Made by a program: the position numbers and the translations under genes. A stretch of DNA of 64,000 bases, from the NCBI GenBank assembly GCA_039619475.1, contig CM077116.1, forward strand, positions 19,093,443-19,157,442, written 5' to 3'. The notes under the pieces were generated by a model. That model was not told where the DNA came from. It worked only from the letters and a program-made list of their open reading frames with translations, and ran no database searches. How positions within the stretch are numbered: the stretch's first letter is position 1; the number at the start of each line of letters is the position of its first letter. This DNA comes from Icerya purchasi. Its lineage: Eukaryota > Arthropoda > Insecta > Hemiptera > Monophlebidae. This document shows, piece by piece, positions 1,601 through 63,257 of this stretch.

Positions 1601-2952
1601 ATTTTATTATTTTGAAGTATCTAAAAAATATGCGTTCTCTGTTTATTATTAACAGATTTCAATGCCATTGGAAATCAACTAATAAACGTGCTATATTCTG
1701 TTATAAACTTACCCTCATAAATGGCGAATCCTGATTTTTTAACTGGTACACTCCTGTAAGATAGAAAAATGTTGAAATAAAATAAGCTCGACAAGCAACT
1801 AATAAACAAAATTAAATCAAGAAGGCTTCTTTTTTTTTTTTTTTTTTTTTTTTTTTTGGAAAAGTAACGAAAAACAAAAAATATTAAATTAATGTCAAAG
1901 AAAATGGATATTTAAATTTCGATAGAGGAAATTAACAGATCTACTATATGGGTTATTTGCATGAACAGCAAAAAGGAATAATGTAAAATGAATTCAAAAA
2001 TTAAATAAACAAATAAAGTGGAGATTATTAAGTAACTTTAATTTATGAAAACTATATAAAATTAAATATATGTACGCGCTTTCGTCTTTAAGTAAAAAAA
2101 TTGAAATACATTATTAAGGAAGACAATTAAGATCGCATTAAGAAATATCTATTTAAACTGAACATGCCCGCATTAACAAACTTTTCTAAATTGCCAATCT
2201 CGCACTGCCGCTTCTGTACCGCTTTTTGTTTGTCATTGGCGACAGATTTTCGCTTGATTTGCCAAGCATATTTACGAATTAGGCGCGTGAACATCATTTT
2301 GCTGTGAAAAGATAGCGTAGTCAGTTTCGCAGCGAAAGCTATGTAGCTGGTTTCTCTACAAAAGTAGTGCTGTACTTGTTAAACGTTCGATCCGATTGAT
2401 TGTTTATGCTGTTTTGTGCAGCTATTGTATAAGTGCATTCTTAGTGGCTGGCTAATGTTAAAAAAGTACTCACAAACAAAACACGAAAGGTGAAGAGATT
2501 ATCAAATTGCAATTCAGCCGTTACTCGACACTGACGTCTTACACATTAAGCATTTTTTCTCGCATGCTCAAATAGCGATTTCTCAGATTTCTAGCTAAAA
2601 ACTGTCTTGTCAGGTTAATATCTAAAGAAATACTAGCAGAGTTCTTTTTCAATTTGCTTTGCTCCCGTCTACTGTACTGTTTAAATGTTTAAGTGTTTGT
2701 CAAGAATATAGATATAGAAACATACAGTATATAATGATTAAACTGAAAGAACAAATATAAAAAGTACAGAACACTGACTAGTTTCGAACTAAATCGTTTA
2801 TGATCACAGCACGATGAACGATTTTATATTTTTTATATTTGTTTTTTCAATTTAATCATAAGTTACCGTCCTCAGAAATGAATATATTTGTAGGGTCGTA
2901 CATACATATATATTATATACACAAAACTCCTGACTAGTATAATAATAGTAGT
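1601..2952. other. AT-rich DNA, no gene seen
   Basis: No supported coding region or named repeat. There is a T homopolymer of about 28 at 1830-1857. The block around 2160-2690 is less AT-rich but is broken in all frames. Confidence 0.55.
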
Positions 2953-3110
2953 CATTAAGTTGACACTTAACCTACTTAAAACCCGGGAAAACGAATTTTG
3001 CCGCGGATTAGACCTTGACAGATCGGTTTCTTGGCCCAAAAAATCCCCCTAGTGTGCAAGTTTCGTGAAAATCGTTAGAGCCATTTTCGAGTTCGAGCGA
3101 CGTACAAATA
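2953..3110 (+). repeat. dispersed repeat, direct copy 1 (flanks the palindrome)
   Basis: A block of about 155 bp starting CATTAAGTTGACACTTAA and ending near GCCATTTTCGAGTTCGAG recurs in the same orientation at 19856-19994, with an estimated 85-90 percent identity by eye. It leads into a TATG/TGTG microsatellite at 3108-3131 that runs up to the left tip of the palindrome. Sequences of the type GTGAAAATCGTTAGAGCCATTTTCGAG followed by a short microsatellite are common at transposon ends in insects, but I cannot name the family. Confidence 0.7.
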
Positions 3111-3132
3111 TATATGTATGTATGTGTGTGCA

Positions 3133-3138
3133 TTTATG
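3133..3138. repeat. putative 6-bp target site duplication, left (TTTATG)
   Basis: TTTATG lies immediately outside the left tip of the palindrome. The same hexamer in the same orientation lies immediately outside the right tip at 19510-19515. The mirror identity of the arms stops exactly at these boundaries. Confidence 0.7.
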
Positions 3139-3169
3139 AGTAGCTAATAAATGGGCAAGCTGGTGCAGT

Positions 3170-4120
3170 TTCCCCCGAGTTTCCCCCGAGTGTCCAGGTT
3201 TTCCTCCGACATTCCTGGACAGTTCCCCCGATTTGCCATCCGAGTACTCAAATTTCACCCAAATTCCTGTCCAGGTACTCAAATTTAACCTAAATTCCCG
3301 TCCAGGTAGTCAAAATTCACCCCAATTTGTGTCTAGGTGTCCAAAATTCACCCAAGTTTCCCCACAGTTCCTCCGACTTCCCCACAATTTTCCTGGACAG
3401 TTCCGCTTATCCGAACCCCAATTTGTGTCCAGATGCCCAAAATTCACCCCAGACCGCTAATCCGAACTCAAAATTCACCCCAATTTGTATCCATGCGATC
3501 AAATTTAACCTAAATTCCTGTCCAGGTACTCAAAATTCACCTCAATCCCCGTCCATGTGATCAAATTTAACCTAAATTCCCGTCCAGGTAGTCAAAATTC
3601 ACCCAAGTTTCCCCACAGTTCCTCCGACTTCCCCACAATTTTCCTGGACAGTTCCGCTTATCCGAACCCCAATTTGTGTCCAGATGCCCAAAATTCACCC
3701 CAGACCGCTAATCCGAACTCAAAATTCACCCCAATTTGTATCCATGCGATCAAATTTAACCTAAATTCCTGTCCAGGTACTCAAAATTCACCTCAATCCC
3801 CGTCCATATGATCAAATTTCACCCAAATTCCCATCCAGCTACTCAAAATTCACCCCAATTTATGTCCGAGAGTCCAAAATTCACCCCAATTTATGTCCAG
3901 GTGCTCGAAATTCACCCAAGTTTCCCCCGATTCCTCCGAGTGTCCTCCAGACGGTTCCCGCACATTTCCAGTAAACCGAACGTCCAAACAGTGTCCAGAG
4001 GTCAATAAACTATCCAAAGTGTTATTCGGGGGCGCAAGTAACCCCAATTAGTGTCCAGGTGCTGAAAGTTCCCACAAGTTCCCTAAATTTCTTTGAAATT
4101 CACCTGTACGCGTCCTGCTC
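3170..4120. repeat. 31-bp minisatellite, left arm tip (C-rich plus strand)
   Basis: Degenerate units of about 31 bp follow the pattern GTCCAGGT, three variable bases, CAAAATTCACCCC, then AATTTGT. They are repeated with variants from the arm tip inward. Near the outer end a GTTTCCCCCGA unit occurs twice. Short frames rich in Asn, Pro and Ser in this stretch are translations of the repeat. Tandem repeats in the terminal inverted repeats are common in Maverick-like elements. The mirror lies at 18779-19478. Confidence 0.85.
3343..3844. repeat. 251-bp tandem duplication present only in the left arm
   Basis: Two consecutive units, 3343-3593 and 3594-3844, agree at a constant offset of 251 from the CAAAATTCACCCAAG block through the CTCAATCCCCGTCCAT block. 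The right arm has one unit only. This explains the change of mirror sum from 22648 to 22899. It is a copy-number change inside the minisatellite that arose, or was lost, after the palindrome formed. Confidence 0.85.
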
Positions 4121-4319
4121 GTTTCCGATAAACCGAACAGATTATTAATTAACATAAGTACATTAATTAACGTCCGAAAGTAAACCAAGTCTCCACTAGC
4201 CCCGCCCACCCGCTGCTTTACAACTATTTTTTTAAAAATTCCGAGGCCTAAGTATGAAAATTCCAAAATTTAACCCCAATATATTATTTAAAGCGTAAAT
4301 CTAACCTATAACTCCAGTT

Positions 4320-4640
4320 TACACCTCTCACACGTATATTTCGATCACGCGCACGCTCCGGTCGCCGACGCGAAAGCGCACGCGCCGATCCCACACATAT
4401 TCCGATCTCCGCCGCGATATCACACCCACACATACGCGCTCCGTTCCCGATACCGCGATTATTTCTTAAATATTTCAAAGTCTAAGTATACATAATATAA
4501 AATTAGCCGAAGCATATTTTTTTATTTTCATGATTCCCCGATCTTACTGCCATATGCCAAGACGCACGTCCCGATCGCGCGCATATATCTAACATAACGT
4601 TCTACGCCGCGATAGCGCACACGCCGATCCCCCGCACGTG
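4320..4640. repeat. CpG-rich imperfect repeats, left arm
   Basis: A locally GC- and CpG-rich patch in an AT-rich element. It repeats CCGATC, GCGCAC, GCGATA and CACACG motifs around 4330-4470 and 4560-4650. The open frame across it has many Arg residues because of CG-rich codons and shows no domain. The mirror lies at 18259-18579. Confidence 0.6.
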
Positions 4641-4953
4641 TCGTCCGTTTACGCTGCTTCAATTATTTTTTTAATTATTTTTTTTTTTTCACATAATAAC
4701 CCAATCCCTGCTCTGTTGTCTAAACCTAACCGGTTATCCAAAACATTTACAAATTAACAAATCAATTATTTTTATAGTCTAAATTAGCCTTAGTCTCCTT
4801 TACCCCTACCACCCTCTTTTCCGATCAATTTCGTTGTTTTAATATCGAATATATCGCATTCAATTTACTTTTACTACGACCATTAAACCCCCGATCGACG
4901 CTCCCGACGCCTCAGTCATCTCATATTGAGAGGTAATTATTTTTTATGTGACC

Positions 4954-5485
4954 GCTATGAATGCACACCGTCCATTCCCGCACACCAATCTGCTATCGTT
5001 AGTTCCCATACCGTTCATAATAACTTTTATTCAACTCCAAGTATTATGGAATTATTCCAATTATATATTTTCTTCACTCCCGATCATTTCTTCTGACCGT
5101 TCATAATATTTTTATTTTCCTCCGGTTCTAAAAATAAATCCTACAATGTCTTCAACGCGATGAATGCGCACACATCTTCTGCAGTTAGTTTCCATAACGA
5201 TCTTAATAATTTTTCAAGCCTAAATATTATAGAAATAGCCGAAGTACATTTTTTTCGTTTCTGATCATTTCTTCCGACCGTTCATAATATTTTTATTTTT
5301 CTCTGGTTCTAAAAATAAATCCTACAATGTCTTCAACGCGATGAATGCACACACATCTGCCGTCGTTAGTTCCCATACCGTTCATAATAACTTTTTTCCA
5401 CTCCAAGTATTATGGAATTATTCTAACTATATTTTTCACGTTTCCGATCATTTCTTCAGAGTGTTTATCATTTTTTATATTTTTT
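4954..5485. repeat. 181-bp tandem repeat, about three copies, left arm
   Basis: Three successive copies start near 4954, 5158 and 5339. Each contains GATGAATGCACAC-like text, then CCATACCGTTCATAATAA, AGTATTATGGAATTATTC and CCGATCATTTCTTC. The last two starts are 181 bp apart. Copies differ by scattered substitutions. The mirror lies at 17414-17945. Confidence 0.75.
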
Positions 5486-6120
5486 TAGCGTTTCCAAAAA
5501 TTCCTTTATCGTTCCCAGTCCCTCCAAGCCAAATCTTTCATAATATATTTTCCAGAGCCCCCCCAAACCATCAAACCTCTAAAGAAACATAGACGCTGTC
5601 TCCAACACCCATTTTACCATCAGTTATTGTATATTATTGTCAAATTATTTTTCCAAAAGCCTTTTTAAAATTTTTTCACGTTCGTACATATTTTTTATTT
5701 GCACGACATTCGTTTCCATGCACACACGTTTCCATACCGATTGTAATATTTATTTATTTTTCATCCCCTCCCAGACTTCATACACATCCCACTGGCACGT
5801 TCAACGATAGTTTCTTTATTGATCCTGTACATTTTTTCTGCATTAGCCGCGGGAGCGTAGCACATCAATCCATCCCACACACTATGCGTCCTCATATATT
5901 TAATTTTTAATTAACGATCTTTAATTATTTTTACTGGTATTATTTTTCCTACACAATCACTCCATCATACATACTTTACACTGTGAAAATAATTTTAGCC
6001 TTTCGATAGAGGAAATCTCCGATCACTAAATAATTGTTATAGGCGTCCTATTTTTAATATTATACACATCTCAGTATAATTATTAAACGAAGGAACTCAC
6101 AGCATCGTTGCTGCAATCGC
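5486..6120. other. left arm, unique AT-rich stretch
   Basis: No tandem structure or coding signal that I can support. The open frame ending at 5592 is an extension of the 181-bp repeat. The stretch is mirrored exactly at 16779-17413. Confidence 0.5.
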
Positions 6121-6122
6121 AC

Positions 6123-6895
6123 CAGTCTTTCTTTTTAGGAATCGTCAACCTCTGCAGGTATACGCCTCATCGCTACACCAGCCTTTGTCTGCACGGGTTG
6201 CTTATCTTTAAGGCCCCTCGTGTGTCGCACACTATTTACCGTTATTCGAAAGAAGTATATTTTTTACGCTCGCGCACGCACCTATACGCACACATTTAAC
6301 ATTAGGGTCATTGGTCAGGCGACATTTCCAAGAACAATCACTGCTCCGCTGTCTAAGCTGCATCACCGGTCGTTCGCAACATTATTGATGAAGCGCCTTT
6401 TTTTACAATAGGATAATTTATGACGTCTATACACCTTTTCTAGGAATCAAGGTAAAAGCGACCAATCTTTCCCACTGAAACCGGTTTTTAGACACGCCCC
6501 CAGTCTTTCTTTTTAGGAATTGACAACTTCTACAGGTATACATCTCCTTGACATGACAGCCTTTGTATGCGAGGGTTCTTTATCTTCAAGGTCATTTATG
6601 TGTCGCATGCTATCTACCATTATTCAGCAGAAGAATATATATTTTTTTTTTTGCGTTCGCATACACCTGTACGCACACATTTAACATCAGGCTCGTTTTC
6701 AAGAACAACAATCGCTGCTCCACAACCTAAACCGCCTCGTCTCGCCATTCACCCGCAACATTATTGAAGCCTCTATCATGTACCTGCATTTACGACCTTT
6801 TACAACAGGATAATTTATGACGTCTATACACGTTTTCTAGGAATCAAGGTGAAAGCGGTCAATCTCTCCCGCTGAAACCGGTTTTTCACACACGT
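6123..6895. repeat. tandem duplication of about 380 bp, left arm
   Basis: Two copies, starting at 6123 and 6501 with CAGTCTTTCTTTTTAGGAAT, align through CACACATTTAACAT, GCAACATTATTGA, AATTTATGACGTCTATACAC and CTGAAACCGGTTTT. Both copies preserve on the minus strand a short C-terminal coding segment and its stop, described under the decayed modules. The mirror lies at 16004-16776. Confidence 0.8.
6427..6495 (-). pseudogene. decayed coding module V, left-arm copy (C-terminal remnant)
   Basis: Mirror of 16404-16472. It encodes 22 codons plus stop that closely match the C-terminus of module IV. Only this end of the module is preserved. Confidence 0.45.
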
Positions 6896-7189
6896 TACAC
6901 AATGGTATAATGTGTAGTTCAGGGCTTCGTCTTCCACCGCTCGTTTCTGGAGGTACCGTTTGTTAGCATTAACATGAATATGATACTGCCGTGTGGTAAG
7001 AGCATCATACAGAACGATCACGTCCTCGTCATCGACGCATAACCCGCATGCTTATGTAACTGATCTATACACTAAAGAAATCCTCCTTAACCGATCCTGT
7101 TAGACTGGTGGAGAGTAATGGCCTCGCACTACTATTTACCGATAACGCCTCAGCTTCAATCACCTCTGCACAGCCATGTAGTAAACGTT
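6824..7189 (-). pseudogene. decayed coding module IV, left-arm copy
   Basis: Exact mirror of 15710-16075; see that entry. The C-terminal 65 codons are open (6824-7021) and upstream sequence is frameshifted relative to the sibling modules. Function unknown. Confidence 0.45.
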
Positions 7190-7362
7190 ATCTTCATTAT
7201 TACAATCTTATGTTTTAACATTGTTACACTATTTTTCTCATTTTTAACTAATTATACCCCGTTTTCCACTATTTCACCCCATTTTCATACATTTTAGCAC
7301 TTTTACACTGTTTTCGTCAATTCCTGCTATTTCTCACCGTTTTTTCAGTGCTTTTAGCCCTT

Positions 7363-7899
7363 TCACACAATTTTCCTCAATTTTTCGCGATCTTTCTTAC
7401 TTTTTTCTTCCAACTCTTTACTATGCCTATATTCAACCGCGATAACCTTCTCTAGGCTTTCTTTCAACCCCTCAGTCTCTACTAGGCACCTCACCCACTT
7501 AGCGACCATCGCCGCAGAAGAATGTTTTAGGTATTCCATGGGGGTCCTCACTTGCATATGGAGATGTACCAGTTGAATCAATCAAATCTTTGAGAGGGTG
7601 GTATGATGCATCAAATCGGGAGTTGTCTTCGGTTATTCCGCTGCTAGAGCTCCTCCCAACATTTTCAATGTGACTATTATACTGATGTGCGATAAGAGCG
7701 TCCATCAGTTCAAACGTGTCCTAGATATTGACTAGACATCTGCCCAACACGCTTATGTAACTGATCTATGGACATCTTTAAGCACCCCCTCTCCCCCGAA
7801 ATCGTTCCTATTAGGCTGGTATGAGTAAGGGCCTCCTGCAACCATTTATCAATTACCATGTTCTCGTCAATCACCACTGCACAGGTATGTAGGAATTAT
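7363..7899 (-). pseudogene. decayed coding module III, left-arm copy
   Basis: Exact mirror of 15000-15536; see that entry. Open segments are 7499-7705 and 7363-7581, overlapping in different frames. Function unknown. Confidence 0.45.
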
Positions 7900-7998
7900 T
7901 TTCCTCTATAAAATATTCTCGCGTTTAACACTGTTACGCCATTTTTACAGTGCTTTTAGTACCTTTCACACAATTTTCCTCATTTTTTCATGATTTTT

Positions 7999-8514
7999 TC
8001 TTACTTTTTTTTTTCTTCCAACTCTTTACTAAGCAGATATTCAACCGCGATAACCTTCTCTAGACTCTCTTTTAGCCCCTCAGTCTCTGCCAAGGCACAT
8101 CTCACGCTTAACGACCATCACCGCAGTAGAATGTTTTAAGTATTTCAAGGAGCTCTCCACTTGCATATGGAGGTGTAACGGTTGAATCGATCACATCTTT
8201 GAACGGGTTGTCTGATGCATCAAATCGGGAGGTGTCTTCGATCATTCCACTGCTAGAGGCTCCGCTCGAGATCTTCCATGTGATTATTATGCTGAAGAGC
8301 GTTCATCAGTTCAAACGGGTCCTAGATTTTGACCAGACATCTGCCCCAGCATGTTTACACAGCTACTCAGTACAGTAAGGATATCTTTAAGCACTCCCTC
8401 CCCCCGTAATCGTTCCTATTAGGCGGGTATGAGCAAAGGCCTCATGCAACCATTTATCAATTACTATGTTCTCGGCAATCATCGATGCACAGACATATAG
8501 GAAATGTTTTCCTC
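7999..8514 (-). pseudogene. decayed coding module II, left-arm copy
   Basis: Exact mirror of 14385-14900; see that entry. It is more broken than module III, with an extra base around the Ser-rich segment and stops downstream. Function unknown. Confidence 0.4.
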
Positions 8515-9258
8515 CTCATAATATTCTCGTGTTTAACACTTACACTGTTTCCATCATCTTTAAGTAATTATAAACAATTTTTCACTATTTCTCTACATTT
8601 TCATGCATTATACTACTTTTACATTGATTTAGACAATTTTTGATGTTTCTCACCATTTTCCTTTGTTTTAGCTCCTTTCACACAACTTTCTTCAGTTTCT
8701 CACTGTCTTTGTAAGGTTTTTTTATTTCTTACAATTCTTAACTACATTATTCTTCGTATGCATATGCTTCAGGAATATGTTCTACTATATCTACAACAAA
8801 TCAATGCTAATATAACTTGCTAACCTATGATATGATGCGGTGTGTAGGTGTATGTTTATATGTATAGGTGAGCGAGGACGGGTGATTGTATATGTTTGTA
8901 TGCTTCTGCGAGTGAATGTGGGAGTCTATGCAAGTGTGTGGGGGTGCGACATGCACGTGATTATTACATTGTTGTAGTCCTCGTCATCGACGCATCATCA
9001 TAATTATTATAAAAATTGTAAAAACATATTTGTCATCGTAATAACTGAAATTAACATTAGTACATTCCATCAGGCACCCAATATACTTTAGAGGCAGAGT
9101 TAAAATGGGATGCGGCCAGTGGAGAAATAGCCGTGACTGAAATCTCAACTAGATATACGGTTTTCATCACCAAATTTTAAGAAGATGTATATTTTTTCTA
9201 CAAGTTGGGAATAGTAGTCTCTTGAATAGCATGCAAAATGTCAGAGCGACGGTTACAA
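8515..9258. other. left arm, T-rich spacer and unique stretch
   Basis: 8540-8750 is a T-rich stretch of short CTATTTCTC / TTTTCACT / CATTTTAG phrases that recurs next to each module (also 7250-7400, 7930-8010 and 9420-9580). 8760-9250 is unique apart from its mirror at 13641-14140. Confidence 0.5.
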
Positions 9259-9394
9259 TGTTCAGGTCTATAAGCATGCTTCTTTTAAGCCAGTGAGAGC
9301 AAGGGACTCATGCAACTGCTTCCCAATCACTTCCAGCACATAAGCCTCAGTCGCATGCACTGTCATGCAGGAATTGTATCCATCATTATCATAT
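9259..9394 (-). pseudogene. decayed coding module I, left-arm copy
   Basis: Exact mirror of 13505-13640; see that entry. Only the N-terminal-like conserved block is recognisable. Confidence 0.35.
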
Positions 9395-9584
9395 TTTTAT
9401 GCTTTAAACACCGCTTTTTCCTCAATTTAAATAATTATAGCCAATTTTCAACCACTTCTCCTCATTTTCTTACATTTTAGTACTTTTACACTGTTTTAGT
9501 CAATTTCTGCTATTTCTCACCATTTTCAAATGTTTTTACCACCTTTCACACAATTTTTCCTCAATTTTCACAATCTTTGTAAGG

Positions 9585-10820
9585 GTTTTTTTCCTAAATG
9601 TGGGTACTTTAGTCATAAATGGAGTAATTTTCTGCGTGAGGAGTACTTTTCAGCTCGACGTGTATACTTCGTGATATGACATTCAATTCATTATTAATCT
9701 ATGTTTCAACAGGTTTGTGGTCGATTGTTGGAGGTTTACAGAACTTTTTGTTGCATTGCTTATAGTATAATGGTTCTTGTGTGCTAGTGAGATGATGGTG
9801 TTTGGTTGGGAATAATAAACATGGGTAAGAGAAGGAGTGCGTCCCATGAAGCAGGGGGAGTGTTGCTTCGTAATTAACTTGGGTATTGCGCGCATTGCAT
9901 GGCAGTTATAATATGCTCGAGCGAAAATTAGTCGCTGTACTCGCATGGCGTTCATGTTATTCATTAAATGTTCACACTGAGAGATGCAATGGGCTCATCA
10001 ACTTATGGATCCATCCGATCACTTCGATTTTTATAATTGTAATATGCACTGAGCATGTATGTATTCCAACAAACCCATCAACTCTGTTACAGATAGTAAT
10101 GTTTGAGGATAGATAGTGAAACGTTCATTAGAACATGAATGTGTATACAAAGTGTTGTTACATCACATGTATGTCATCAAATTAACTAGAATGTTGCGTC
10201 TATAGTAAAAAAAAAAGAAATGAGGGGTTTTCCCTAAGAGGGCGACTATAATAAAATTGATGCGATTTTAAATGGAAATGGGGTATTTTACAGTAAAAAC
10301 GCTGTTTTGCACCTAAATGGTGAATATTCTGGAGGTTAAACGGTATTTTTCACACAAAATTTGATGTTTTTTTATAAATGTGGCTATTTTACTCCTACAT
10401 GGAGTAATTTCTGCATGAGGAGTACTTTTTGGACTGACATGTATAATTCTTGATGTGGTATTCAATTCATTCTGAAGCTATGTTTGAACAGCTTTGTAAA
10501 TGGTTGGGGGGAAGTTTACAGAACTTTTCTGTTGCATCAGTTATAGTATAGTAGTTTTTTGGTGCTAGTGAGATGAAGGTATTTGGTTAGGAATAATAAA
10601 TATGGGTAAGAGGTGGAGTGCATCCCCATCAAGCATGGGAGAGTATTGTTTGGGAATTAACTCCATTATTTGCACACATTGCAATACAATTATAATCAGT
10701 TTTGGTCAAAATTACTTGTTGTATATCGTTCATGTTATACATTAAACATTCACACTGAGAAACGGACTGGACTCTTCAACATCAAGATCCATGCGATCGT
10801 TACACTCTTTTTCAACAATT
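9585..10820. repeat. 780-bp tandem duplication, left arm (inner)
   Basis: The block starting near 9600 (AATGTGGGTACTTTAGTC) aligns with one starting near 10378 at a 780-bp offset and roughly 75-80 percent identity by eye. Shared anchors are GGAGTAATTT, GAGGAGTACTTTT, TTTACAGAACTTTT, GGTAAGAG and CATTCACACTGAGA. The open frames of 93 codons (minus strand) and 76 codons (plus strand) at 9683-10116 overlap on opposite strands. The second copy breaks both, so I do not call a gene. The mirror lies at 12079-13314. Confidence 0.7.
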
Positions 10821-11164
10821 TGTGACGTTTCATACTATTTTTTAATGTTTTGAACGGCTCTTATGATGTATTTCAGCACATTTTCACAGGTACAAAGTTC
10901 GTAATGCGAAATAATTTGAATTATTTCGACAGTCTTTACACACAAATAAAATACTATACCATTAACACACTCAACATGAAACAAATCATTACAAATAGAA
11001 ATATTAACGAAATTGCTCAGAAATTTTAATGAAATTCAAGAAGCATAGTGTATATGAAAATGAATATATTCTTTAAATCAACACTCCAAACTTGCAGTTT
11101 CAGAATTGTATCAGACCCTGACTAAGAACCCCATTGTTCCTTTTGCTGCATATATATGTATATA
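10821..11164. other. left arm, unique stretch next to the axis
   Basis: AT-rich, no tandem structure and no open frame of note. It is mirrored exactly at 11735-12078. Confidence 0.5.
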
Positions 11165-11735
11165 ATCATATAATATTAAATTATACCTATACCTACATAT
11201 ATACATATATATATCTAAATATATACATATATATATCTACATATATACATACATATATCTACATATATATACATATATACCTACATATATATATATATAT
11301 ATATCTACATATACACATATATATATCTACATATATACATATATATCTACATATATACATATATATATCTACATATATACATATATATATATCTACATGT
11401 ATACAAATATATATCTACATATATAGACGTATGTATATATGTATTTATGTAGATATATATATGTATATATGTAGATATATATGTATATATATGTAGATAT
11501 ATATATATGTATATATGCAGATATATATGTATGTATGTAGGTATATATATATGTATATATGTAGATATATATATGTATATATGCAGATATATATGTATAT
11601 ATGTAGATATATATATGTGTATATGTAGATATATATGTATATATGTAGGTATATATGTATATATATGTAGATATATGTATGTATATATGTAGATATATAT
11701 ATGTAGGTATAGGTATAATTTAATATTATATGATT
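11165..11735. repeat. TA-rich microsatellite at the palindrome axis
   Basis: Degenerate 18-20 bp units of CTACATATATACATATATAT run on the left. Near 11430 they switch to the complementary GTAGATATATATGTATATAT on the right. The axis of the outer arms (11449/11450) falls inside this block. Tyr/Ile-rich frames on both strands (for example 11134-11496 and 11445-11765) are translations of the microsatellite, not proteins. Confidence 0.9.
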
Positions 11736-12078
11736 ATATACATATATATGCAGCAAAAGGAACAATGGGGTTCTTAGTCAGGGTCTGATACAATTCTGAA
11801 ACTGCAAGTTTGGAGTGTTGATTTAAAGAATATATTCATTTTCATATACACTATGCTTCTTGAATTTCATTAAAATTTCTGAGCAATTTCGTTAATATTT
11901 CTATTTGTAATGATTTGTTTCATGTTGAGTGTGTTAATGGTATAGTATTTTATTTGTGTGTAAAGACTGTCGAAATAATTCAAATTATTTCGCATTACGA
12001 ACTTTGTACCTGTGAAAATGTGCTGAAATACATCATAAGAGCCGTTCAAAACATTAAAAAATAGTATGAAACGTCACA

Positions 12079-13314
12079 AATTGTTGAAAAAGAGTGTAAC
12101 GATCGCATGGATCTTGATGTTGAAGAGTCCAGTCCGTTTCTCAGTGTGAATGTTTAATGTATAACATGAACGATATACAACAAGTAATTTTGACCAAAAC
12201 TGATTATAATTGTATTGCAATGTGTGCAAATAATGGAGTTAATTCCCAAACAATACTCTCCCATGCTTGATGGGGATGCACTCCACCTCTTACCCATATT
12301 TATTATTCCTAACCAAATACCTTCATCTCACTAGCACCAAAAAACTACTATACTATAACTGATGCAACAGAAAAGTTCTGTAAACTTCCCCCCAACCATT
12401 TACAAAGCTGTTCAAACATAGCTTCAGAATGAATTGAATACCACATCAAGAATTATACATGTCAGTCCAAAAAGTACTCCTCATGCAGAAATTACTCCAT
12501 GTAGGAGTAAAATAGCCACATTTATAAAAAAACATCAAATTTTGTGTGAAAAATACCGTTTAACCTCCAGAATATTCACCATTTAGGTGCAAAACAGCGT
12601 TTTTACTGTAAAATACCCCATTTCCATTTAAAATCGCATCAATTTTATTATAGTCGCCCTCTTAGGGAAAACCCCTCATTTCTTTTTTTTTTACTATAGA
12701 CGCAACATTCTAGTTAATTTGATGACATACATGTGATGTAACAACACTTTGTATACACATTCATGTTCTAATGAACGTTTCACTATCTATCCTCAAACAT
12801 TACTATCTGTAACAGAGTTGATGGGTTTGTTGGAATACATACATGCTCAGTGCATATTACAATTATAAAAATCGAAGTGATCGGATGGATCCATAAGTTG
12901 ATGAGCCCATTGCATCTCTCAGTGTGAACATTTAATGAATAACATGAACGCCATGCGAGTACAGCGACTAATTTTCGCTCGAGCATATTATAACTGCCAT
13001 GCAATGCGCGCAATACCCAAGTTAATTACGAAGCAACACTCCCCCTGCTTCATGGGACGCACTCCTTCTCTTACCCATGTTTATTATTCCCAACCAAACA
13101 CCATCATCTCACTAGCACACAAGAACCATTATACTATAAGCAATGCAACAAAAAGTTCTGTAAACCTCCAACAATCGACCACAAACCTGTTGAAACATAG
13201 ATTAATAATGAATTGAATGTCATATCACGAAGTATACACGTCGAGCTGAAAAGTACTCCTCACGCAGAAAATTACTCCATTTATGACTAAAGTACCCACA
13301 TTTAGGAAAAAAAC
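12079..13314. repeat. 780-bp tandem duplication, right arm (inner)
   Basis: Mirror of 9585-10820, with the same anchors in reverse complement and no difference seen in the translated segments. Confidence 0.7.
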
Positions 13315-13504
13315 CCTTACAAAGATTGTGAAAATTGAGGAAAAATTGTGTGAAAGGTGGTAAAAACATTTGAAAATGGTGAGAAATAGCAGAAATTGAC
13401 TAAAACAGTGTAAAAGTACTAAAATGTAAGAAAATGAGGAGAAGTGGTTGAAAATTGGCTATAATTATTTAAATTGAGGAAAAAGCGGTGTTTAAAGCAT
13501 AAAA

Positions 13505-13640
13505 ATATGATAATGATGGATACAATTCCTGCATGACAGTGCATGCGACTGAGGCTTATGTGCTGGAAGTGATTGGGAAGCAGTTGCATGAGTCCCTTGC
13601 TCTCACTGGCTTAAAAGAAGCATGCTTATAGACCTGAACA
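13505..13640 (+). pseudogene. decayed coding module I, right arm
   Basis: Follows an A-rich spacer (13305-13500). The readable segment ends with LHESLALTGLKEACL and then stops. It aligns to the first conserved block of modules II and III (pattern W/Q-L-Q/H-E-A/S-L/F, T/A, T, L). It is short, with no further conserved block downstream, so it is the most reduced copy. Confidence 0.35.
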
Positions 13641-14384
13641 TTGTAACCGTCGCTCTGACATTTTGCATGCTATTCAAGAGACTACTATTCCCAACTTGTA
13701 GAAAAAATATACATCTTCTTAAAATTTGGTGATGAAAACCGTATATCTAGTTGAGATTTCAGTCACGGCTATTTCTCCACTGGCCGCATCCCATTTTAAC
13801 TCTGCCTCTAAAGTATATTGGGTGCCTGATGGAATGTACTAATGTTAATTTCAGTTATTACGATGACAAATATGTTTTTACAATTTTTATAATAATTATG
13901 ATGATGCGTCGATGACGAGGACTACAACAATGTAATAATCACGTGCATGTCGCACCCCCACACACTTGCATAGACTCCCACATTCACTCGCAGAAGCATA
14001 CAAACATATACAATCACCCGTCCTCGCTCACCTATACATATAAACATACACCTACACACCGCATCATATCATAGGTTAGCAAGTTATATTAGCATTGATT
14101 TGTTGTAGATATAGTAGAACATATTCCTGAAGCATATGCATACGAAGAATAATGTAGTTAAGAATTGTAAGAAATAAAAAAACCTTACAAAGACAGTGAG
14201 AAACTGAAGAAAGTTGTGTGAAAGGAGCTAAAACAAAGGAAAATGGTGAGAAACATCAAAAATTGTCTAAATCAATGTAAAAGTAGTATAATGCATGAAA
14301 ATGTAGAGAAATAGTGAAAAATTGTTTATAATTACTTAAAGATGATGGAAACAGTGTAAGTGTTAAACACGAGAATATTATGAG
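13641..14384. other. right arm, unique stretch and A-rich spacer
   Basis: No gene seen. Mirror of 8515-9258. 14160-14380 is the A-rich spacer that precedes module II. Confidence 0.5.
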
Positions 14385-14900
14385 GAGGAAAACATTTCCT
14401 ATATGTCTGTGCATCGATGATTGCCGAGAACATAGTAATTGATAAATGGTTGCATGAGGCCTTTGCTCATACCCGCCTAATAGGAACGATTACGGGGGGA
14501 GGGAGTGCTTAAAGATATCCTTACTGTACTGAGTAGCTGTGTAAACATGCTGGGGCAGATGTCTGGTCAAAATCTAGGACCCGTTTGAACTGATGAACGC
14601 TCTTCAGCATAATAATCACATGGAAGATCTCGAGCGGAGCCTCTAGCAGTGGAATGATCGAAGACACCTCCCGATTTGATGCATCAGACAACCCGTTCAA
14701 AGATGTGATCGATTCAACCGTTACACCTCCATATGCAAGTGGAGAGCTCCTTGAAATACTTAAAACATTCTACTGCGGTGATGGTCGTTAAGCGTGAGAT
14801 GTGCCTTGGCAGAGACTGAGGGGCTAAAAGAGAGTCTAGAGAAGGTTATCGCGGTTGAATATCTGCTTAGTAAAGAGTTGGAAGAAAAAAAAAAGTAAGA
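14385..14900 (+). pseudogene. decayed coding module II, right arm
   Basis: Aligns with module III along its length: first block around VIDKWLHEAF, then the segment after CAGATGTCTGGTCAAAATCT, the block ending SRFDAS, and the charged C-terminal block (ETEGLKESLEKVIAVEY). One extra base near 14643 relative to module III breaks the Ser-rich segment, and a further frame change separates the last two blocks. No family is recognised. I infer a relic of the same gene as module III. Confidence 0.45.
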
Positions 14901-14999
14901 AAAAATCATGAAAAAATGAGGAAAATTGTGTGAAAGGTACTAAAAGCACTGTAAAAATGGCGTAACAGTGTTAAACGCGAGAATATTTTATAGAGGAAA

Positions 15000-15536
15000 A
15001 TAATTCCTACATACCTGTGCAGTGGTGATTGACGAGAACATGGTAATTGATAAATGGTTGCAGGAGGCCCTTACTCATACCAGCCTAATAGGAACGATTT
15101 CGGGGGAGAGGGGGTGCTTAAAGATGTCCATAGATCAGTTACATAAGCGTGTTGGGCAGATGTCTAGTCAATATCTAGGACACGTTTGAACTGATGGACG
15201 CTCTTATCGCACATCAGTATAATAGTCACATTGAAAATGTTGGGAGGAGCTCTAGCAGCGGAATAACCGAAGACAACTCCCGATTTGATGCATCATACCA
15301 CCCTCTCAAAGATTTGATTGATTCAACTGGTACATCTCCATATGCAAGTGAGGACCCCCATGGAATACCTAAAACATTCTTCTGCGGCGATGGTCGCTAA
15401 GTGGGTGAGGTGCCTAGTAGAGACTGAGGGGTTGAAAGAAAGCCTAGAGAAGGTTATCGCGGTTGAATATAGGCATAGTAAAGAGTTGGAAGAAAAAAGT
15501 AAGAAAGATCGCGAAAAATTGAGGAAAATTGTGTGA
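15000..15536 (+). pseudogene. decayed coding module III, right arm (best preserved)
   Basis: Three conserved blocks lie in order in different frames. The first, at about 15025-15190, includes VIDKWLQEALTHTSLIGT. The second, 15194-15400, starts MDALIAHQYNSHIENVG. The third, 15318-15536, carries ETEGLKESLEKVIAVEY and a Lys/Glu-rich, coiled-coil-like tail. Because blocks rather than single frames are conserved between modules, I infer a former protein interrupted by frameshifts or small introns near 15188 and 15345. An A-rich spacer of GTGAAA / TAAAAG phrases follows. Product unknown: no catalytic motif, signal peptide or membrane segment seen. It may be a cargo or structural gene of the element. 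Confidence 0.5.
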
Positions 15537-15709
15537 AAGGGCTAAAAGCACTGAAAAAACGGTGAGAAATAGCAGGAATTGACGAAAACAGTGTAAAAGT
15601 GCTAAAATGTATGAAAATGGGGTGAAATAGTGGAAAACGGGGTATAATTAGTTAAAAATGAGAAAAATAGTGTAACAATGTTAAAACATAAGATTGTAAT
15701 AATGAAGAT

Positions 15710-16075
15710 AACGTTTACTACATGGCTGTGCAGAGGTGATTGAAGCTGAGGCGTTATCGGTAAATAGTAGTGCGAGGCCATTACTCTCCACCAGTCTAAC
15801 AGGATCGGTTAAGGAGGATTTCTTTAGTGTATAGATCAGTTACATAAGCATGCGGGTTATGCGTCGATGACGAGGACGTGATCGTTCTGTATGATGCTCT
15901 TACCACACGGCAGTATCATATTCATGTTAATGCTAACAAACGGTACCTCCAGAAACGAGCGGTGGAAGACGAAGCCCTGAACTACACATTATACCATTGT
16001 GTAACGTGTGTGAAAAACCGGTTTCAGCGGGAGAGATTGACCGCTTTCACCTTGATTCCTAGAAAACGTGTATAG
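15710..16075 (+). pseudogene. decayed coding module IV, right arm
   Basis: The open segment 15878-16075 aligns at its start to the second block of module III (YDALTTRQYH against MDALIAHQYN). It then continues into a different tail with three Cys/His residues (TLYHCVTC) and the C-terminus KNRFQRERLTAFTLIPRKRV followed by a stop. Upstream, 15720-15830 matches the first block of the other modules but is shifted. The C-terminus is repeated with conservative changes in module V, which supports past coding. Family not recognised. Confidence 0.5.
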
Positions 16076-16776
16076 ACGTCATAAATTATCCTGTTGTAAA
16101 AGGTCGTAAATGCAGGTACATGATAGAGGCTTCAATAATGTTGCGGGTGAATGGCGAGACGAGGCGGTTTAGGTTGTGGAGCAGCGATTGTTGTTCTTGA
16201 AAACGAGCCTGATGTTAAATGTGTGCGTACAGGTGTATGCGAACGCAAAAAAAAAAATATATATTCTTCTGCTGAATAATGGTAGATAGCATGCGACACA
16301 TAAATGACCTTGAAGATAAAGAACCCTCGCATACAAAGGCTGTCATGTCAAGGAGATGTATACCTGTAGAAGTTGTCAATTCCTAAAAAGAAAGACTGGG
16401 GGCGTGTCTAAAAACCGGTTTCAGTGGGAAAGATTGGTCGCTTTTACCTTGATTCCTAGAAAAGGTGTATAGACGTCATAAATTATCCTATTGTAAAAAA
16501 AGGCGCTTCATCAATAATGTTGCGAACGACCGGTGATGCAGCTTAGACAGCGGAGCAGTGATTGTTCTTGGAAATGTCGCCTGACCAATGACCCTAATGT
16601 TAAATGTGTGCGTATAGGTGCGTGCGCGAGCGTAAAAAATATACTTCTTTCGAATAACGGTAAATAGTGTGCGACACACGAGGGGCCTTAAAGATAAGCA
16701 ACCCGTGCAGACAAAGGCTGGTGTAGCGATGAGGCGTATACCTGCAGAGGTTGACGATTCCTAAAAAGAAAGACTG
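16004..16776. repeat. tandem duplication of about 380 bp, right arm
   Basis: Mirror of 6123-6895. In this orientation each copy starts with the conserved C-terminal coding segment of modules IV and V and ends with CCTAAAAAGAAAGACTG. Confidence 0.8.
16404..16472 (+). pseudogene. decayed coding module V, right arm (C-terminal remnant)
   Basis: Encodes KNRFQWERLVAFTLIPRKGV followed by a stop. It differs from module IV at three residues (R/W, T/V, R/G) with the frame and stop kept. It sits one tandem unit downstream of module IV with no upstream blocks. Confidence 0.45.
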
Positions 16777-16778
16777 GT

Positions 16779-17413
16779 GCGATTGCAGCAACGATGCTGT
16801 GAGTTCCTTCGTTTAATAATTATACTGAGATGTGTATAATATTAAAAATAGGACGCCTATAACAATTATTTAGTGATCGGAGATTTCCTCTATCGAAAGG
16901 CTAAAATTATTTTCACAGTGTAAAGTATGTATGATGGAGTGATTGTGTAGGAAAAATAATACCAGTAAAAATAATTAAAGATCGTTAATTAAAAATTAAA
17001 TATATGAGGACGCATAGTGTGTGGGATGGATTGATGTGCTACGCTCCCGCGGCTAATGCAGAAAAAATGTACAGGATCAATAAAGAAACTATCGTTGAAC
17101 GTGCCAGTGGGATGTGTATGAAGTCTGGGAGGGGATGAAAAATAAATAAATATTACAATCGGTATGGAAACGTGTGTGCATGGAAACGAATGTCGTGCAA
17201 ATAAAAAATATGTACGAACGTGAAAAAATTTTAAAAAGGCTTTTGGAAAAATAATTTGACAATAATATACAATAACTGATGGTAAAATGGGTGTTGGAGA
17301 CAGCGTCTATGTTTCTTTAGAGGTTTGATGGTTTGGGGGGGCTCTGGAAAATATATTATGAAAGATTTGGCTTGGAGGGACTGGGAACGATAAAGGAATT
17401 TTTGGAAACGCTA
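16779..17413. other. right arm, unique AT-rich stretch
   Basis: Mirror of 5486-6120; nothing further seen. Confidence 0.5.
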
Positions 17414-17945
17414 AAAAAATATAAAAAATGATAAACACTCTGAAGAAATGATCGGAAACGTGAAAAATATAGTTAGAATAATTCCATAATACTTGGAGTG
17501 GAAAAAAGTTATTATGAACGGTATGGGAACTAACGACGGCAGATGTGTGTGCATTCATCGCGTTGAAGACATTGTAGGATTTATTTTTAGAACCAGAGAA
17601 AAATAAAAATATTATGAACGGTCGGAAGAAATGATCAGAAACGAAAAAAATGTACTTCGGCTATTTCTATAATATTTAGGCTTGAAAAATTATTAAGATC
17701 GTTATGGAAACTAACTGCAGAAGATGTGTGCGCATTCATCGCGTTGAAGACATTGTAGGATTTATTTTTAGAACCGGAGGAAAATAAAAATATTATGAAC
17801 GGTCAGAAGAAATGATCGGGAGTGAAGAAAATATATAATTGGAATAATTCCATAATACTTGGAGTTGAATAAAAGTTATTATGAACGGTATGGGAACTAA
17901 CGATAGCAGATTGGTGTGCGGGAATGGACGGTGTGCATTCATAGC
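17414..17945. repeat. 181-bp tandem repeat, right arm
   Basis: Mirror of 4954-5485, about three copies. Confidence 0.75.
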
Positions 17946-18258
17946 GGTCACATAAAAAATAATTACCTCTCAATATGAGATGACTGAGGCGTCGGGAGCG
18001 TCGATCGGGGGTTTAATGGTCGTAGTAAAAGTAAATTGAATGCGATATATTCGATATTAAAACAACGAAATTGATCGGAAAAGAGGGTGGTAGGGGTAAA
18101 GGAGACTAAGGCTAATTTAGACTATAAAAATAATTGATTTGTTAATTTGTAAATGTTTTGGATAACCGGTTAGGTTTAGACAACAGAGCAGGGATTGGGT
18201 TATTATGTGAAAAAAAAAAAATAATTAAAAAAATAATTGAAGCAGCGTAAACGGACGA
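17946..18258. other. right arm, unique stretch
   Basis: No gene or repeat unit seen other than the mirror of 4641-4953. Confidence 0.5.
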
Positions 18259-18579
18259 CACGTGCGGGGGATCGGCGTGTGCGCTATCGCGGCGTAGAAC
18301 GTTATGTTAGATATATGCGCGCGATCGGGACGTGCGTCTTGGCATATGGCAGTAAGATCGGGGAATCATGAAAATAAAAAAATATGCTTCGGCTAATTTT
18401 ATATTATGTATACTTAGACTTTGAAATATTTAAGAAATAATCGCGGTATCGGGAACGGAGCGCGTATGTGTGGGTGTGATATCGCGGCGGAGATCGGAAT
18501 ATGTGTGGGATCGGCGCGTGCGCTTTCGCGTCGGCGACCGGAGCGTGCGCGTGATCGAAATATACGTGTGAGAGGTGTA
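18259..18579. repeat. CpG-rich imperfect repeats, right arm
   Basis: Mirror of 4320-4640. It repeats GATCGGCG, GCGCGAT and GTGTGCGCTATCGCG motifs. Confidence 0.6.
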
Positions 18580-18778
18580 AACTGGAGTTATAGGTTAGAT
18601 TTACGCTTTAAATAATATATTGGGGTTAAATTTTGGAATTTTCATACTTAGGCCTCGGAATTTTTAAAAAAATAGTTGTAAAGCAGCGGGTGGGCGGGGC
18701 TAGTGGAGACTTGGTTTACTTTCGGACGTTAATTAATGTACTTATGTTAATTAATAATCTGTTCGGTTTATCGGAAAC

Positions 18779-19478
18779 GAGCAGGACGCGTACAGGTGAA
18801 TTTCAAAGAAATTTAGGGAACTTGTGGGAACTTTCAGCACCCGGACACTAATTGGGGTTACTTGCGCCCCCGAATAACACTTTGGATAGTTTATTGACCT
18901 CTGGACACTGTTTGGACGTTCGGTTTACTGGAAATGTGCGGGAACCGTCTGGAGGACACTCGGAGGAATCGGGGGAAACTTGGGTGAATTTCGAGCACCT
19001 GGACATAAATTGGGGTGAATTTTGGACTCTCGGACATAAATTGGGGTGAATTTTGAGTAGCTGGATGGGAATTTGGGTGAAATTTGATCACATGGACGGG
19101 GATTGAGGTGAATTTTGAGTACCTGGACAGGAATTTAGGTTAAATTTGATCGCATGGATACAAATTGGGGTGAATTTTGAGTTCGGATTAGCGGTCTGGG
19201 GTGAATTTTGGGCATCTGGACACAAATTGGGGTTCGGATAAGCGGAACTGTCCAGGAAAATTGTGGGGAAGTCGGAGGAACTGTGGGGAAACTTGGGTGA
19301 ATTTTGGACACCTGGACACAAATTGGGGTGAATTTTGACTACCTGGACGGGAATTTAGGTTAAATTTGAGTACCTGGACAGGAATTTGGGTGAAATTTGA
19401 GTACTCGGATGGCAAATCGGGGGAACTGTCCAGGAATGTCGGAGGAAAACCTGGACACTCGGGGGAAACTCGGGGGAA
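18779..19478. repeat. 31-bp minisatellite, right arm tip (G-rich plus strand)
   Basis: Reverse complement of the left-tip minisatellite. The G-rich strand carries GGGGTGAATTTTG and CTGGACA phrases and, at the outer end, two CTCGGGGGAAA units. It lacks the extra 251-bp unit. Confidence 0.85.
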
Positions 19479-19509
19479 ACTGCACCAGCTTGCCCATTTA
19501 TTAGCTACT

Positions 19510-19515
19510 TTTATG
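19510..19515. repeat. putative 6-bp target site duplication, right (TTTATG)
   Basis: Direct copy of 3133-3138, abutting the terminal ...GCTACT of the palindrome. Confidence 0.7.
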
Positions 19516-31443: not shown

Positions 31444-32051
31444 AATTCCCATTTCGCCTAATTCCCATTTCGCCTAAATTTAGGGTCGGGTTACTCAAGT
31501 AATAAAAAAAAGGTCAGACGAACATACGAATGATTTCGTGTTGGCAACAGCGCGTCATCATTATCGAATTTTAAGCAGACTAAACGCATCATTTTTTTTT
31601 TCTATTTGATTCCACTGTTAATCTTTTCTTTCCGAAATGCAACAAAAAGGTTTATATGAAAATCAGAAGTGAAAAAATACCGCTAAAAATGTTTGATGTA
31701 AATATACGCGAAACGACCACTCCAATTAATATTTGCGAGTTATTTTATTGGATGTCCAGTGCTGTATAAATCCCACCCGCCTTATCAGTCAGTATATAAA
31801 AGCCTTATTGATATTTAGTGTGACATGAACATTAAGGTTCGGAGTTGCAGAAAAAATAATAAAAAAGCTAAATTATAATTAGATGTAGTTTCGAAGTGAT
31901 CGCGTTTATGAAAGGAAAAAGGAATAAAAATCGAATAGAATTAACAATAATGACATAACATCGAATGATTATTACAGCGGTAATTTCATTATTGATTATT
32001 AAAATTACAATTATAAGTACATACAAAAAGTAAATGTTAAAATTAGGAAAA
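31444..32051 (+). repeat. foldback element, left arm
   Basis: Starts AATTCCCATTTCGCCT in tandem and ends TTAAAATTAGGAAAA. Reverse complement of 34031-34638. Confidence 0.9.
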
Positions 32052-33009
32052 CATAAATAAAGCTCCATTTAGTTCACCCTGCCTTTTTGCCTTTTCTAGG
32101 CTTTTTATCAAAATAACTTCTTCCGGCTCAACGTAGCACGGTACGCATTTCAAACGCCTATACTGTCAGGAAATGCTCTATTTTCGCTTCTCGGCCACGC
32201 GCAACGAAACTAGTTCGCTACCTCTGCGAAGCGGTCAGATCCTTCGATTTTTTAACCGAGAATGCGTCTTTGACAAACAATGCCACGTTTGCCGGCTTCG
32301 AGACCTTCCGAGAAATTGAATGATTATTACCAAAATTGTAATATTTTCAAAGGTCGTAAGAAATGCCAAATCCATCTCAATATGCTGAAAATCGCCGCAT
32401 ACTGACTGTTTTACGCTATGAGGTTACAATTTGTTCTGGGTTGAGTGCTATGTGTATCAACGTTCTGAAGGAAACTATTCTTCTATCTTGAATATTTAAA
32501 TTTTCGCTTGTGAATAAACCAAAAATTTAGAGTCAGGCTAATATAGCAATGGATATATCATTTATAAAAACCAATCGAGCAGGTAAATAATACATATATT
32601 TATCTAATATTTGTATATTGAAATATTTATTGCAAATTACATTTTAAATGAAATGGTATTCAATTAGATTTTGACAACAGAGAATAAAAAAAATTATCAT
32701 CCATTAAAAAATTATTTTCGCTTAATTGCTATAAATTTTTATTTTGTACGTCAAAAGCGTATGATAAAATATTTGGTTAATTGAATAGCGTCTTTTTATA
32801 TTCTCTTTCTTTTTCCTTTTTGTAATGTTAAATCGTAATCTTTCGGCAATTTATTGAATTAAGACATGTGAAATAGTAAGATAGAAAGTTTTTTTTCTTT
32901 GCCTTTTTTTGGATTTGCCGAAAAATCTGGCAGACTTAACAGATTGCAAAAGAAAGAAGAAAAATATTATAATCTAATTCGATTGGACACTGGGGAAATA
33001 GAAGAAACA
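32052..33009. other. foldback spacer, unique DNA
   Basis: No transposase or other gene seen. The patch at 32120-32330 is less AT-rich but has no open frame of note. Confidence 0.5.
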
Positions 33010-33231
33010 AGAGTAAGGAGGACAGTGTCACTTTATTCCAATCTTCTGCGCTTTGACCTCCCCACTCCTTACAGTGCCAAAGCCATTCTTGCTTTCTCCT
33101 CTCTCAATATAGTTCCTTTGTTAGCTTTCTTTATCTCCTCAATTTTTAATCTTTTCCTTATATAATGTACAGTTCTCTGCGTTGGGTAAGTTCTACTGTT
33201 GACGTGCCCAAAAAATTGAAAAAAAAAAAAA
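33010..33231 (+). mobile_element. LINE 3' end fragment inside the foldback spacer
   Basis: Encodes LYSNLLRFDLPTPYSAKAIL, matching the LINE C-terminus (FYSSLLSNNVPTPYCAAFIL in the right-edge copy). A stop, a short 3' untranslated region with GTTGACGTGCCCA, and an A-run at 33219-33231 follow. The frame from 32899 is not LINE before about 33027. Confidence 0.7.
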
Positions 33232-34030
33232 TTTTTTTTACTTTGTCAGAAACTCTAAAAACAACATTTTTTGCGTTTTATTTATTTTTTTCATTCCAAT
33301 TATTGAAATTACTTGAAAAACATCGTCATTATAGTAAACGTGACTAATTTGAAGAGGAATTGTTCAAAGTCCAACAGCAACCATTTAGGCTTCTGGAGAA
33401 GTTATTTATACCTTAAAATTCGATTTTAGAAGTATTTTTAACAACATACGCCAAGTTTTACCGTTTCATCTTGTAAAATGGAGAAAAAAATCATGACTGT
33501 ATCTTCTAAAATTTTTTTTATACCGTGCGACACATCTAAAAATGTAATAACCCCTTATTACAACCAATTTTTCGCCATTTTTTAATAAATTGTCCTTATT
33601 TTCACTGCTTTCTACAACTAAAAATCTATTGTTAAAGATTATCAAATATAACAAATATACTCGATAGATATAATAATATTTAAAATATACATTTTTTTGA
33701 TATGGTGCTTTTAAATCTATGCTCATTTATTAATCCCATAAAAGCCATGAACTGACCCCATATAACAGGGTCTTCACCTTGTTTATTCCTTGCTTACTCC
33801 TCTTTTTCTGCTGTACACAGAGTTTAATAGTAAATCTAGTAATTTTTCTCGTCCTAATATCCAAATTTTGAAAAATCTCTTGTAATCGTATACGTTACTG
33901 TTGATTATTTATTCAAATCCGAAGCAATATTTAATTTTTAAATTCTTTCGATTTGCAAATTCACTTTTTTTGAATTAAAGAAAAATGAAATTAGGTTCAG
34001 GAACTTTTGTTAAAAAAAAAGAAACAACTC
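33232..34030. other. foldback spacer, AT-rich DNA
   Basis: No supported gene. The minus-strand frame at 33466-33726 (86 codons, Tyr-rich) has no motif. Confidence 0.45.
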
Positions 34031-34638
34031 TTTTCCTAATTTTAATATTTACTTTTTGTATGTACTTATAATTGTAATTTTAATAATCAATAATAAAATT
34101 ACCGCTGTAATAATCATTCGATGTCATGTCATTATTGTTAATTTTATTCGATTTTTATTCCTTTTTCCTTATATAAACGCGACCACTTCGAAACTACATC
34201 TAATTATAATTTAGCTTTTTTATTATTTTTTCTGCAACTCCGAACCTTAATGTTCATATCACACTAAATATCAATAAGGCTTTTATATACTGACTGATAA
34301 GGCGGGTGGGATTTATACAGCACTGGACATCCAATAAAATAACTCGCAAATATTAATTGGAGTGGTCGTTTCGCGTATATTTACATCAAACATTTTTAGC
34401 GGTATTTTTTCACTTCTGATTTTCATATAAACCTTTTTGTTGCATTTCGGAAAGAAAAGATTAACAGTGGAATCAAATAGAAAAAAAAAATGATGCGTTT
34501 AATCTGCTTAAAATTCGATAATGATGACGCGCTGTTGCCAACACGAAATCATTCGTATGTTCGTCTGACCTTTTTTTTATTACTTGAGTAACCCGACCCT
34601 AAATTTAGGCGAAATGGGAATTAGGCGAATTGGGAATT
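34031..34638 (-). repeat. foldback element, right arm
   Basis: Reverse complement of 31444-32051. Confidence 0.9.
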
Positions 34639-40845: not shown

Positions 40846-41018
40846 AGAAATAATTAGCTCATTAATCCAGAAAAAAAAAGAAAAAAGGAAAAAAGAAAAG
40901 GCACTAGAAAATTAGACACGTGATCTTCAGAATTCGCGGCATTTTTCGATTAGTTCGAGCGTATTTTTTAAATTGTACGCTGAAATTTGGCGGCCGAACT
41001 GTGTGATAATCCGTTTAT
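40846..41018. other. short spacer
   Basis: Nothing seen; it leads into the second copy of the 800-bp repeat. Confidence 0.5.
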
Positions 41019-63188: not shown

Positions 63189-63257
63189 ATAGGAACGCCG
63201 AATAAAGAGTGGAGGAATGTGGGTTTCCGCTTGAATAGCAGGGATAGGAGAAGATTT

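Follow-up and report, generated by a model that had tools for sequence, protein, structure and literature searches.

A stretch of 64,000 nucleotides from the genome of Icerya purchasi (assembly GCA_039619475.1, contig CM077116.1, positions 19,093,443 to 19,157,442 of the forward strand; hereafter, the window) contains a palindromic element of 16,371 bp, here named W, at window positions 3139-19509. W is likely to be a non-autonomous, palindromic (inverted-dimer) Polinton/Maverick, a satellite of coding Polintons in the same genome that would be copied and integrated in trans. This reading follows from the tips that W has in common with those coding elements, the 6-bp target-site duplications, the relatedness of its centre to the centres of other palindromes, and a gradation in gene content among the palindromes, with two Polinton genes in the palindrome named I, one in the set named M, and none in W. 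An earlier note on the window had proposed a non-autonomous palindromic relative of Mavericks, and two coding Polintons with the same tips, B and C, now lend support to that proposal.

Architecture of the palindromic element

W begins with AGTAGC and ends with GCTACT, and a copy of TTTATG adjoins each tip as a direct repeat (3133-3138 on the left, 19510-19515 on the right), with dissimilar flanks beyond; the coordinates, tips, hexamer pair, and unrelated flanks given in the earlier note are correct to the base. No strand is assigned to the whole element, the duplications, or the centre. The left arm (plus strand) comprises the left tip (3139-3209), a subterminal minisatellite of 31/62-bp units (3244-3924), a tandem array of ~181-bp units (4979-5484, mirrored at 17415-17920, with related arrays in palindromes I and M), a segment whose homologue in B and C is the inner terminal repeat (6013-6895, arm positions 2875-3757; ~73-91% identity in the main pieces), and an inner arm common to W and the M palindromes (9412-11200; 90% identity over 1.8 kb, 95% over the inner 1.5 kb). 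The sequence turns over in an AT-rich microsatellite centre (approximately 11200-11700) where the arms pair imperfectly, and the right arm (11700-19509, minus strand) mirrors the left out to the right tip (19439-19509, minus strand).

Aligned globally, the two halves show 8 mismatches and 6 gaps in total, and the AT-rich centre accounts for 6 of the mismatches and 5 of the gaps. Outside the centre, the arms differ by 2 substitutions in ~8 kb and by one 251-bp tandem unit that lies in the minisatellite of the left arm alone; the count of 2 holds when the alignment is carried through this unit, and becomes 18 if the unit is allowed to shift register. The two mirror sums reported previously (22648 for the outer and 22899 for the inner arm) are real, and the additional left-arm unit accounts for both. 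The accompanying statement that the arms mirror each other exactly is nearly right, failing at two sites in ~8 kb, but it does not extend to the 251-bp unit or to the imperfect centre, and the exact mirror run inward from the tip is 195 bp. No open reading frame of 100 codons occurs in the arms outside the centre when a start codon is required, and stop-to-stop frames in the left arm are few (100-117 codons).

Coding Polintons with the same tips

The genome was searched with the first 100 bp of W, and the best 40 of 211 candidates were scored, yielding 41 matches. Among these best candidates are 12 facing tip pairs 5-28 kb apart, W included; ten of the others were taken whole (elements A-J) and an eleventh (K) as slices. 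Two are full coding Polintons: B (L011/L012; C2:6063896-6080590; 16,695 bp) and C (L013/L014; C1:245642779-245659367; 16,589 bp), with terminal repeats of ~1.4-1.7 kb. The first 71 bp of W are identical to B and C at both ends, and the remaining related pieces of the terminal repeats are ~67-91% alike. The earlier note had suggested looking for full Polintons with polymerase, integrase, and ATPase genes that share these tips, and B and C answer that description. Family searches on B recovered an integrase of the rve family (PF00665), an ATPase of the A32 type (PF04665), a capsid protein of the double-jelly-roll type (PF21738), and a phospholipase A2-like protein (PF08398), together with a weak match to the adenovirus protease (PF00770; E 0.0012, under the curated cut-off); C has the same frames as B. 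B also encodes a 1250-residue type-B polymerase. The Pfam search of this protein returned no polymerase match, and a comparison with solved structures returned no match at E up to 1; residues 480-1200 have 3408 homologues, and among the 120 listed, PF03175 occurs in 3 and some bear the name DNA polymerase, one of them as type B. Element J is a deleted coding copy of 5,124 bp, and both slices of K contain pieces of Polinton genes.

Polintons and Mavericks are 15-20 kb long, a range into which W fits. W also has their 6-bp duplication and the AG/AGT-ended terminal inverted repeats common to the coding copies. It lacks the set of genes for protein-primed type-B polymerase (pPolB), integrase, ATPase, protease, and capsid proteins: the left arm of W gave no match to ten proteins of B at E 0.001, nor did the left arms of palindromes F and G match Polinton proteins. 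W is therefore classed as a non-autonomous relative and not as a Polinton proper.

Sixteen further unpaired tips were sampled by slices 3.1-3.9 kb inward. Thirteen of these arm slices are of the palindrome type, one contains integrase, and two gave no match.

Target-site duplications

Eleven tip-matched elements, W and A-J, are readable at both ends, and a perfect 6-bp duplication flanks eight of them (W, A, B, C, D, F, H, and J). E and I have a duplication with one mismatch each, and G has no direct duplication. Pooling these with the M palindromes described below gives 22 elements with two readable ends; the 6-bp duplication is perfect in 19, has one mismatch in 2, and is absent from 1. The 19 perfect duplications are all mutually different, so that the palindromic copies include the sites with other hexamers for which the earlier note had suggested a search. 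A single 6-bp match would arise by chance with a probability of 4^-6; given the recurrence of the palindrome across the genome and the 19 perfect duplications, a chance palindrome is ruled out.

The form of these elements recalls transposons of the Foldback/Galileo type, in which most of the element consists of inverted repeats that are very long and repetitive and include tandem arrays. W could in principle be such a P-superfamily transposon without Polinton kinship, a reading that we regard as very improbable. The resemblance is real, extending to subterminal tandem arrays (PMC4168063). Galileo has 7- or 8-bp duplications and a P-type transposase (PMC4168063), whereas the duplications here are of 6 bp in all 19 perfect cases. 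Moreover, coding Polintons have the same tips, related palindromes contain Polinton genes, and the coding copies B and C carry an rve integrase (by family search on B; P-type transposase was not searched for). Foldback duplications, at 9 bp, are longer still, and the duplications here fall outside the 7-9-bp range of the two.

A second set of palindromes

A second search used window positions 10850-11149, in the inner arm, as the query. The best 40 of 760 candidates were scored, all at 98-100% identity; 760 is a loose first-pass number of candidates and not a copy number, and the loci, recovered as best matches to W's own arm, are not a random sample. The 40 matches represent 30 loci, including W, A, D, and H, of which 28 are palindromic about the centre and 2 are undecided. 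Ten are facing pairs, and 12 of the other 20 have a mirrored partner inside 1.9 kb (one of them partial). At 6 of the 30 loci, one arm has lost sequence next to the centre and the mirrored arm resumes further out, as expected if perfect centres are unstable. The six palindromes with such losses are L036, L038, L044, L046, L048, and L055.

This search revealed a second palindrome set, M, which has the inner arm and centre of W. Two members were read whole: M1 (16,748 bp, duplication GTTAGT) and M2 (16,808 bp, duplication AATGCG), both with the tips AGTAGTGTATAAATAG. A further 14 M-type loci were read as 601-base pieces around predicted tips, 9 of them being readable at both ends and 5 unreadable. 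Of these 16 M palindromes, 11 are readable at both ends, and each of the 11 has a perfect 6-bp duplication. Three types of tip occur on M-type bodies: the M tip, the W tip (copy 64), and a third type (copies 68, 74, and 82).

These loci bear on the possibility that replication proceeds through a linear molecule of 8 kb, with one Polinton end and one closed AT-rich hairpin like those at the ends of poxviruses and parvoviruses, the integrated palindrome being a replicative dimer remade in each cycle. The centre of W is an imperfect AT-rich turn-over, and the arms within a copy are far closer than the arms of most different copies, both of which would suit such a molecule. However, the sample contains no half-length integrated copy, with 28 of the 30 inner-arm loci turning back and 2 undecided; a copy with two unlike tips (copy 58, below) is not expected of a dimer of one half; and the 251-bp unit found in one arm of W would have to postdate the dimer. 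An 8-kb replicating form therefore appears unlikely.

Gene content of the palindromes

In palindrome I, two Polinton genes, X and Y, form mirrored pairs around an AT-rich centre, with Y as two overlapping frames per arm. Gene X (L030:3020-3883; L026:3984-4910; L011:6704-7567) does not differ between the two arms of I and has 76% identity to its counterpart in B. Pairwise nonsynonymous divergence (dN) between these two is 0.14 and synonymous divergence (dS) 0.37, a comparison that takes in the branch of B and thus leaves constraint inside the palindromes unproven. In M, X is the only Polinton gene recognised, 24% identical to the X of B over 229 residues; it is open in all four arms of M1 and M2, with 0 differences between the arms within each copy. 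In a protein database search for homologues of X, the Polinton form had 398 candidates and yielded one short relative, whereas the M form had 218 and yielded none; matches to Pfam, PHROGs, and solved structures were all too weak for use.

The sequence beside the centre is related across the three families, with 80% identity between I and M over 508 bp and 87% between I and W over 214 bp, in addition to the W-M likeness given above. The simplest reading of this relatedness is that the palindromic form predates the split of families I, M, and W.

Likeness of the arms within and between copies

Arms within a copy are closely alike. They differ at 2 of 7750 positions in A, 5 of 7750 in D, 10 of 7086 in F, 3 of 7490 in G, 1 of 7750 in M1, and 11 of 6316 in M2; in H, the counts are 3/6462 and 5/724, and three blocks of I have 3/3352, 28/1209, and 12/703. 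When left arms of different W-family copies are compared (15 comparisons over ~6.9-7.4 kb), the number of differences is 22-147, with the minisatellite included in these counts. Outside the minisatellite, the differences number 32-38 for W-A, 4-8 for W-D, 93-110 for W-G, and 106-118 for A-G.

Such likeness might suggest that these are ordinary inverted-repeat transposons in which gene conversion has equalised the arms on the chromosome, in the way that Y-chromosome palindromes keep their arms alike; the arm identity of W, ~99.97%, is of the same order as that of the Y-chromosome examples. Several copies are at odds with this. The arms of E, an old copy with a mismatch in its duplication, are 1.2% apart in their longest block (a single copy), the one-arm deletions at 6 of the 30 inner-arm loci have been kept, and H retains an insert of ~4.5 kb in one arm alone. 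The inserts in H and I are putative long interspersed nuclear elements (LINEs), as judged from their frames. Conversion after insertion would therefore be weak at best, and equalisation on the chromosome is accordingly an improbable source of the symmetry. Because the divergence of E and the one-sided deletions and inserts persist, it is more likely that the arms were already alike at or before insertion than that strong conversion followed.

Observations that weigh against a Polinton satellite

Several observations weigh against the interpretation of W as a palindromic satellite of Polintons. The interpretation is drawn from sequence comparisons, and no coding Polinton with M-type tips is among the elements recovered. 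The contrast between close arms within copies and more distant arms between copies is also uneven: W and D differ by as little as the two arms of one copy, and M1 and M2 differ at 15-19 positions compared with 11 between the arms of M2. The argument for arm co-evolution consequently comes from four copies, A, F, G, and H. Moreover, the likeness beside the centre could have arisen by exchange of centres through recombination between families.

The agreement in length is likewise qualified. Sixteen symmetric palindromes measure 15,003-17,422 bp, with a mean of 16,608 bp, close to the two full coding Polintons that could be measured (B and C). Nine of these 16 lengths were preselected, their tips lying within 300 bp of positions predicted from the M arm, while 5 loci treated in the same way were unreadable; E (11,187 bp), H (20,538 bp), and I (18,821 bp) were left out of the set, H and I having inserts. 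The match is therefore partly built in, owing to the preselection and the three omitted palindromes, and the correspondence between palindrome length and coding Polinton length is suggestive only.

Three of the 13 palindrome-type slices from unpaired tips are in reverse orientation, as in shortened palindromes, and shortened palindromic copies therefore exist. Copy 58 (L058/L059; C1:187402841-187420063) has a W-like left tip and an M right tip between perfect duplications of ATTATA. This mixed-end copy, together with the agreement of W with B and C over 71 bp at the tips as against only 37 bp between W and its close relative D, suggests that palindromes may exchange tips with coding elements.

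Finally, G, which has no direct duplication, has instead an inverted duplication extending 919 bp beyond its tips, with flanks unlike further out. (Copy G corresponds to L021/L022 with L034/L035.) The earlier note had named arms extending past the duplication boundary as grounds for rejecting its reading; G, 1 of 22 elements read, is of that kind. Long palindromes are difficult to assemble, and a fold-back read or collapsed repeat made into a palindrome could produce an inverted flank such as that of G, which alone may be an assembly artefact. As an explanation for the palindromes at large, an artefact is the least probable of those considered here: 19 of 22 elements have dissimilar flanks with matching duplications of 6 bp, substitutions between copies occur in both arms, and the assembly was built from HiFi reads at a mean depth of 31 (PMC11183206).

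A possible route to palindromic Polintons

If W is a palindromic satellite of Polintons, its origin may lie in a defective Polinton copy that turned back on itself, the growing or displaced strand snapping back at a self-complementary AT-rich microsatellite. The product would be an inverted dimer bearing two good ends. The polymerase and integrase of coding Polintons might then recognise the tips, so that protein-primed strand displacement, starting at both ends, would copy the element, which would then be inserted. A displaced palindromic strand could fold back along its whole length, and the resulting hairpin would have a double-stranded origin at its tip. This would allow the form to persist, and copying of the hairpin, together with mismatch repair, would keep the arms alike. 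A size limit on packaging or replication could set the length near 16.6 kb, comparable to the packaging of undersized adenovirus vectors as dimers.

A stronger version of this scenario, in which the palindromes are long-lived satellite viruses of Polintons that have lost all or nearly all genes, are held to length by packaging in helper capsids, swap tips, and have hairpin-equalised arms, is a tentative proposal that we consider rather less probable than its negation. Polinton particles and replication have so far been deduced mostly from gene content. Derivatives that keep the tips, the symmetry, and perhaps the length, while shedding genes, point to features possibly required in cis, and they make testable both the replication of Polintons from protein-primed ends via hairpin or panhandle strands and a size limit on the packaging of Polinton genomes. 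Were the interpretation true, these elements would be a natural counterpart, in an animal genome, to palindromic defective adenovirus genomes. Palindromic Polintons would also be a source of long chromosomal palindromes.

Relation to known systems

Mavericks have 6-bp duplications, and vertebrate ones most commonly start with AGTAGT, with (AGT)2//(ACT)2 ends (PMC8097293). The palindromes resemble Polintons and Mavericks in their 6-bp duplications, AGT-type ends, length of 15-17 kb, and tips common to coding copies, and the M family ends exactly in (AGT)2//(ACT)2, as the vertebrate elements commonly do (PMC8097293). They differ in that the inverted repeat of W is the entire element and that no polymerase, integrase, or capsid gene was found in W.

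A close parallel is found in the Ad12 symmetric recombinant SYREC, a palindromic adenovirus derivative on which we found no paper in the open literature. Helper-dependent adenovirus vectors of 15 kb are packaged as direct and inverted dimers (PMC4189039). The inverted dimers are similarly palindromic derivatives of a protein-primed, capsid-forming element, at approximately the length of the helper genome, a length that the elements described here may share. These elements, by contrast, are inherited in many copies in a host genome and are known from their sequence.

The snap-back genomes of defective-interfering viruses are also self-complementary, having kept the replication ends and lost the genes. 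In these respects they are like the W family, which differs in being integrated, transposon-like, and a lasting lineage, and for which protein-primed copying is proposed. We found no earlier report of palindromic Polintons or Mavericks in the open-access literature, a coverage that excludes most subscription papers and all preprints.

Other features of the window

Several further repeats lie in the window. An element of ~3.2 kb at 31444-34638 has 608-bp inverted repeats that are 98.4% identical, and its ends carry a 16-bp tandem unit. An 818-bp repeat occurs in two copies (788-1605 and 41006-41820) that are 98.9% identical; its inner ~430 bp form an imperfect palindrome, with AACCGACTTCAAAAA at one end. 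On the minus strand at 61986-63959, there are LINE-like frames for reverse transcriptase and RNase H.

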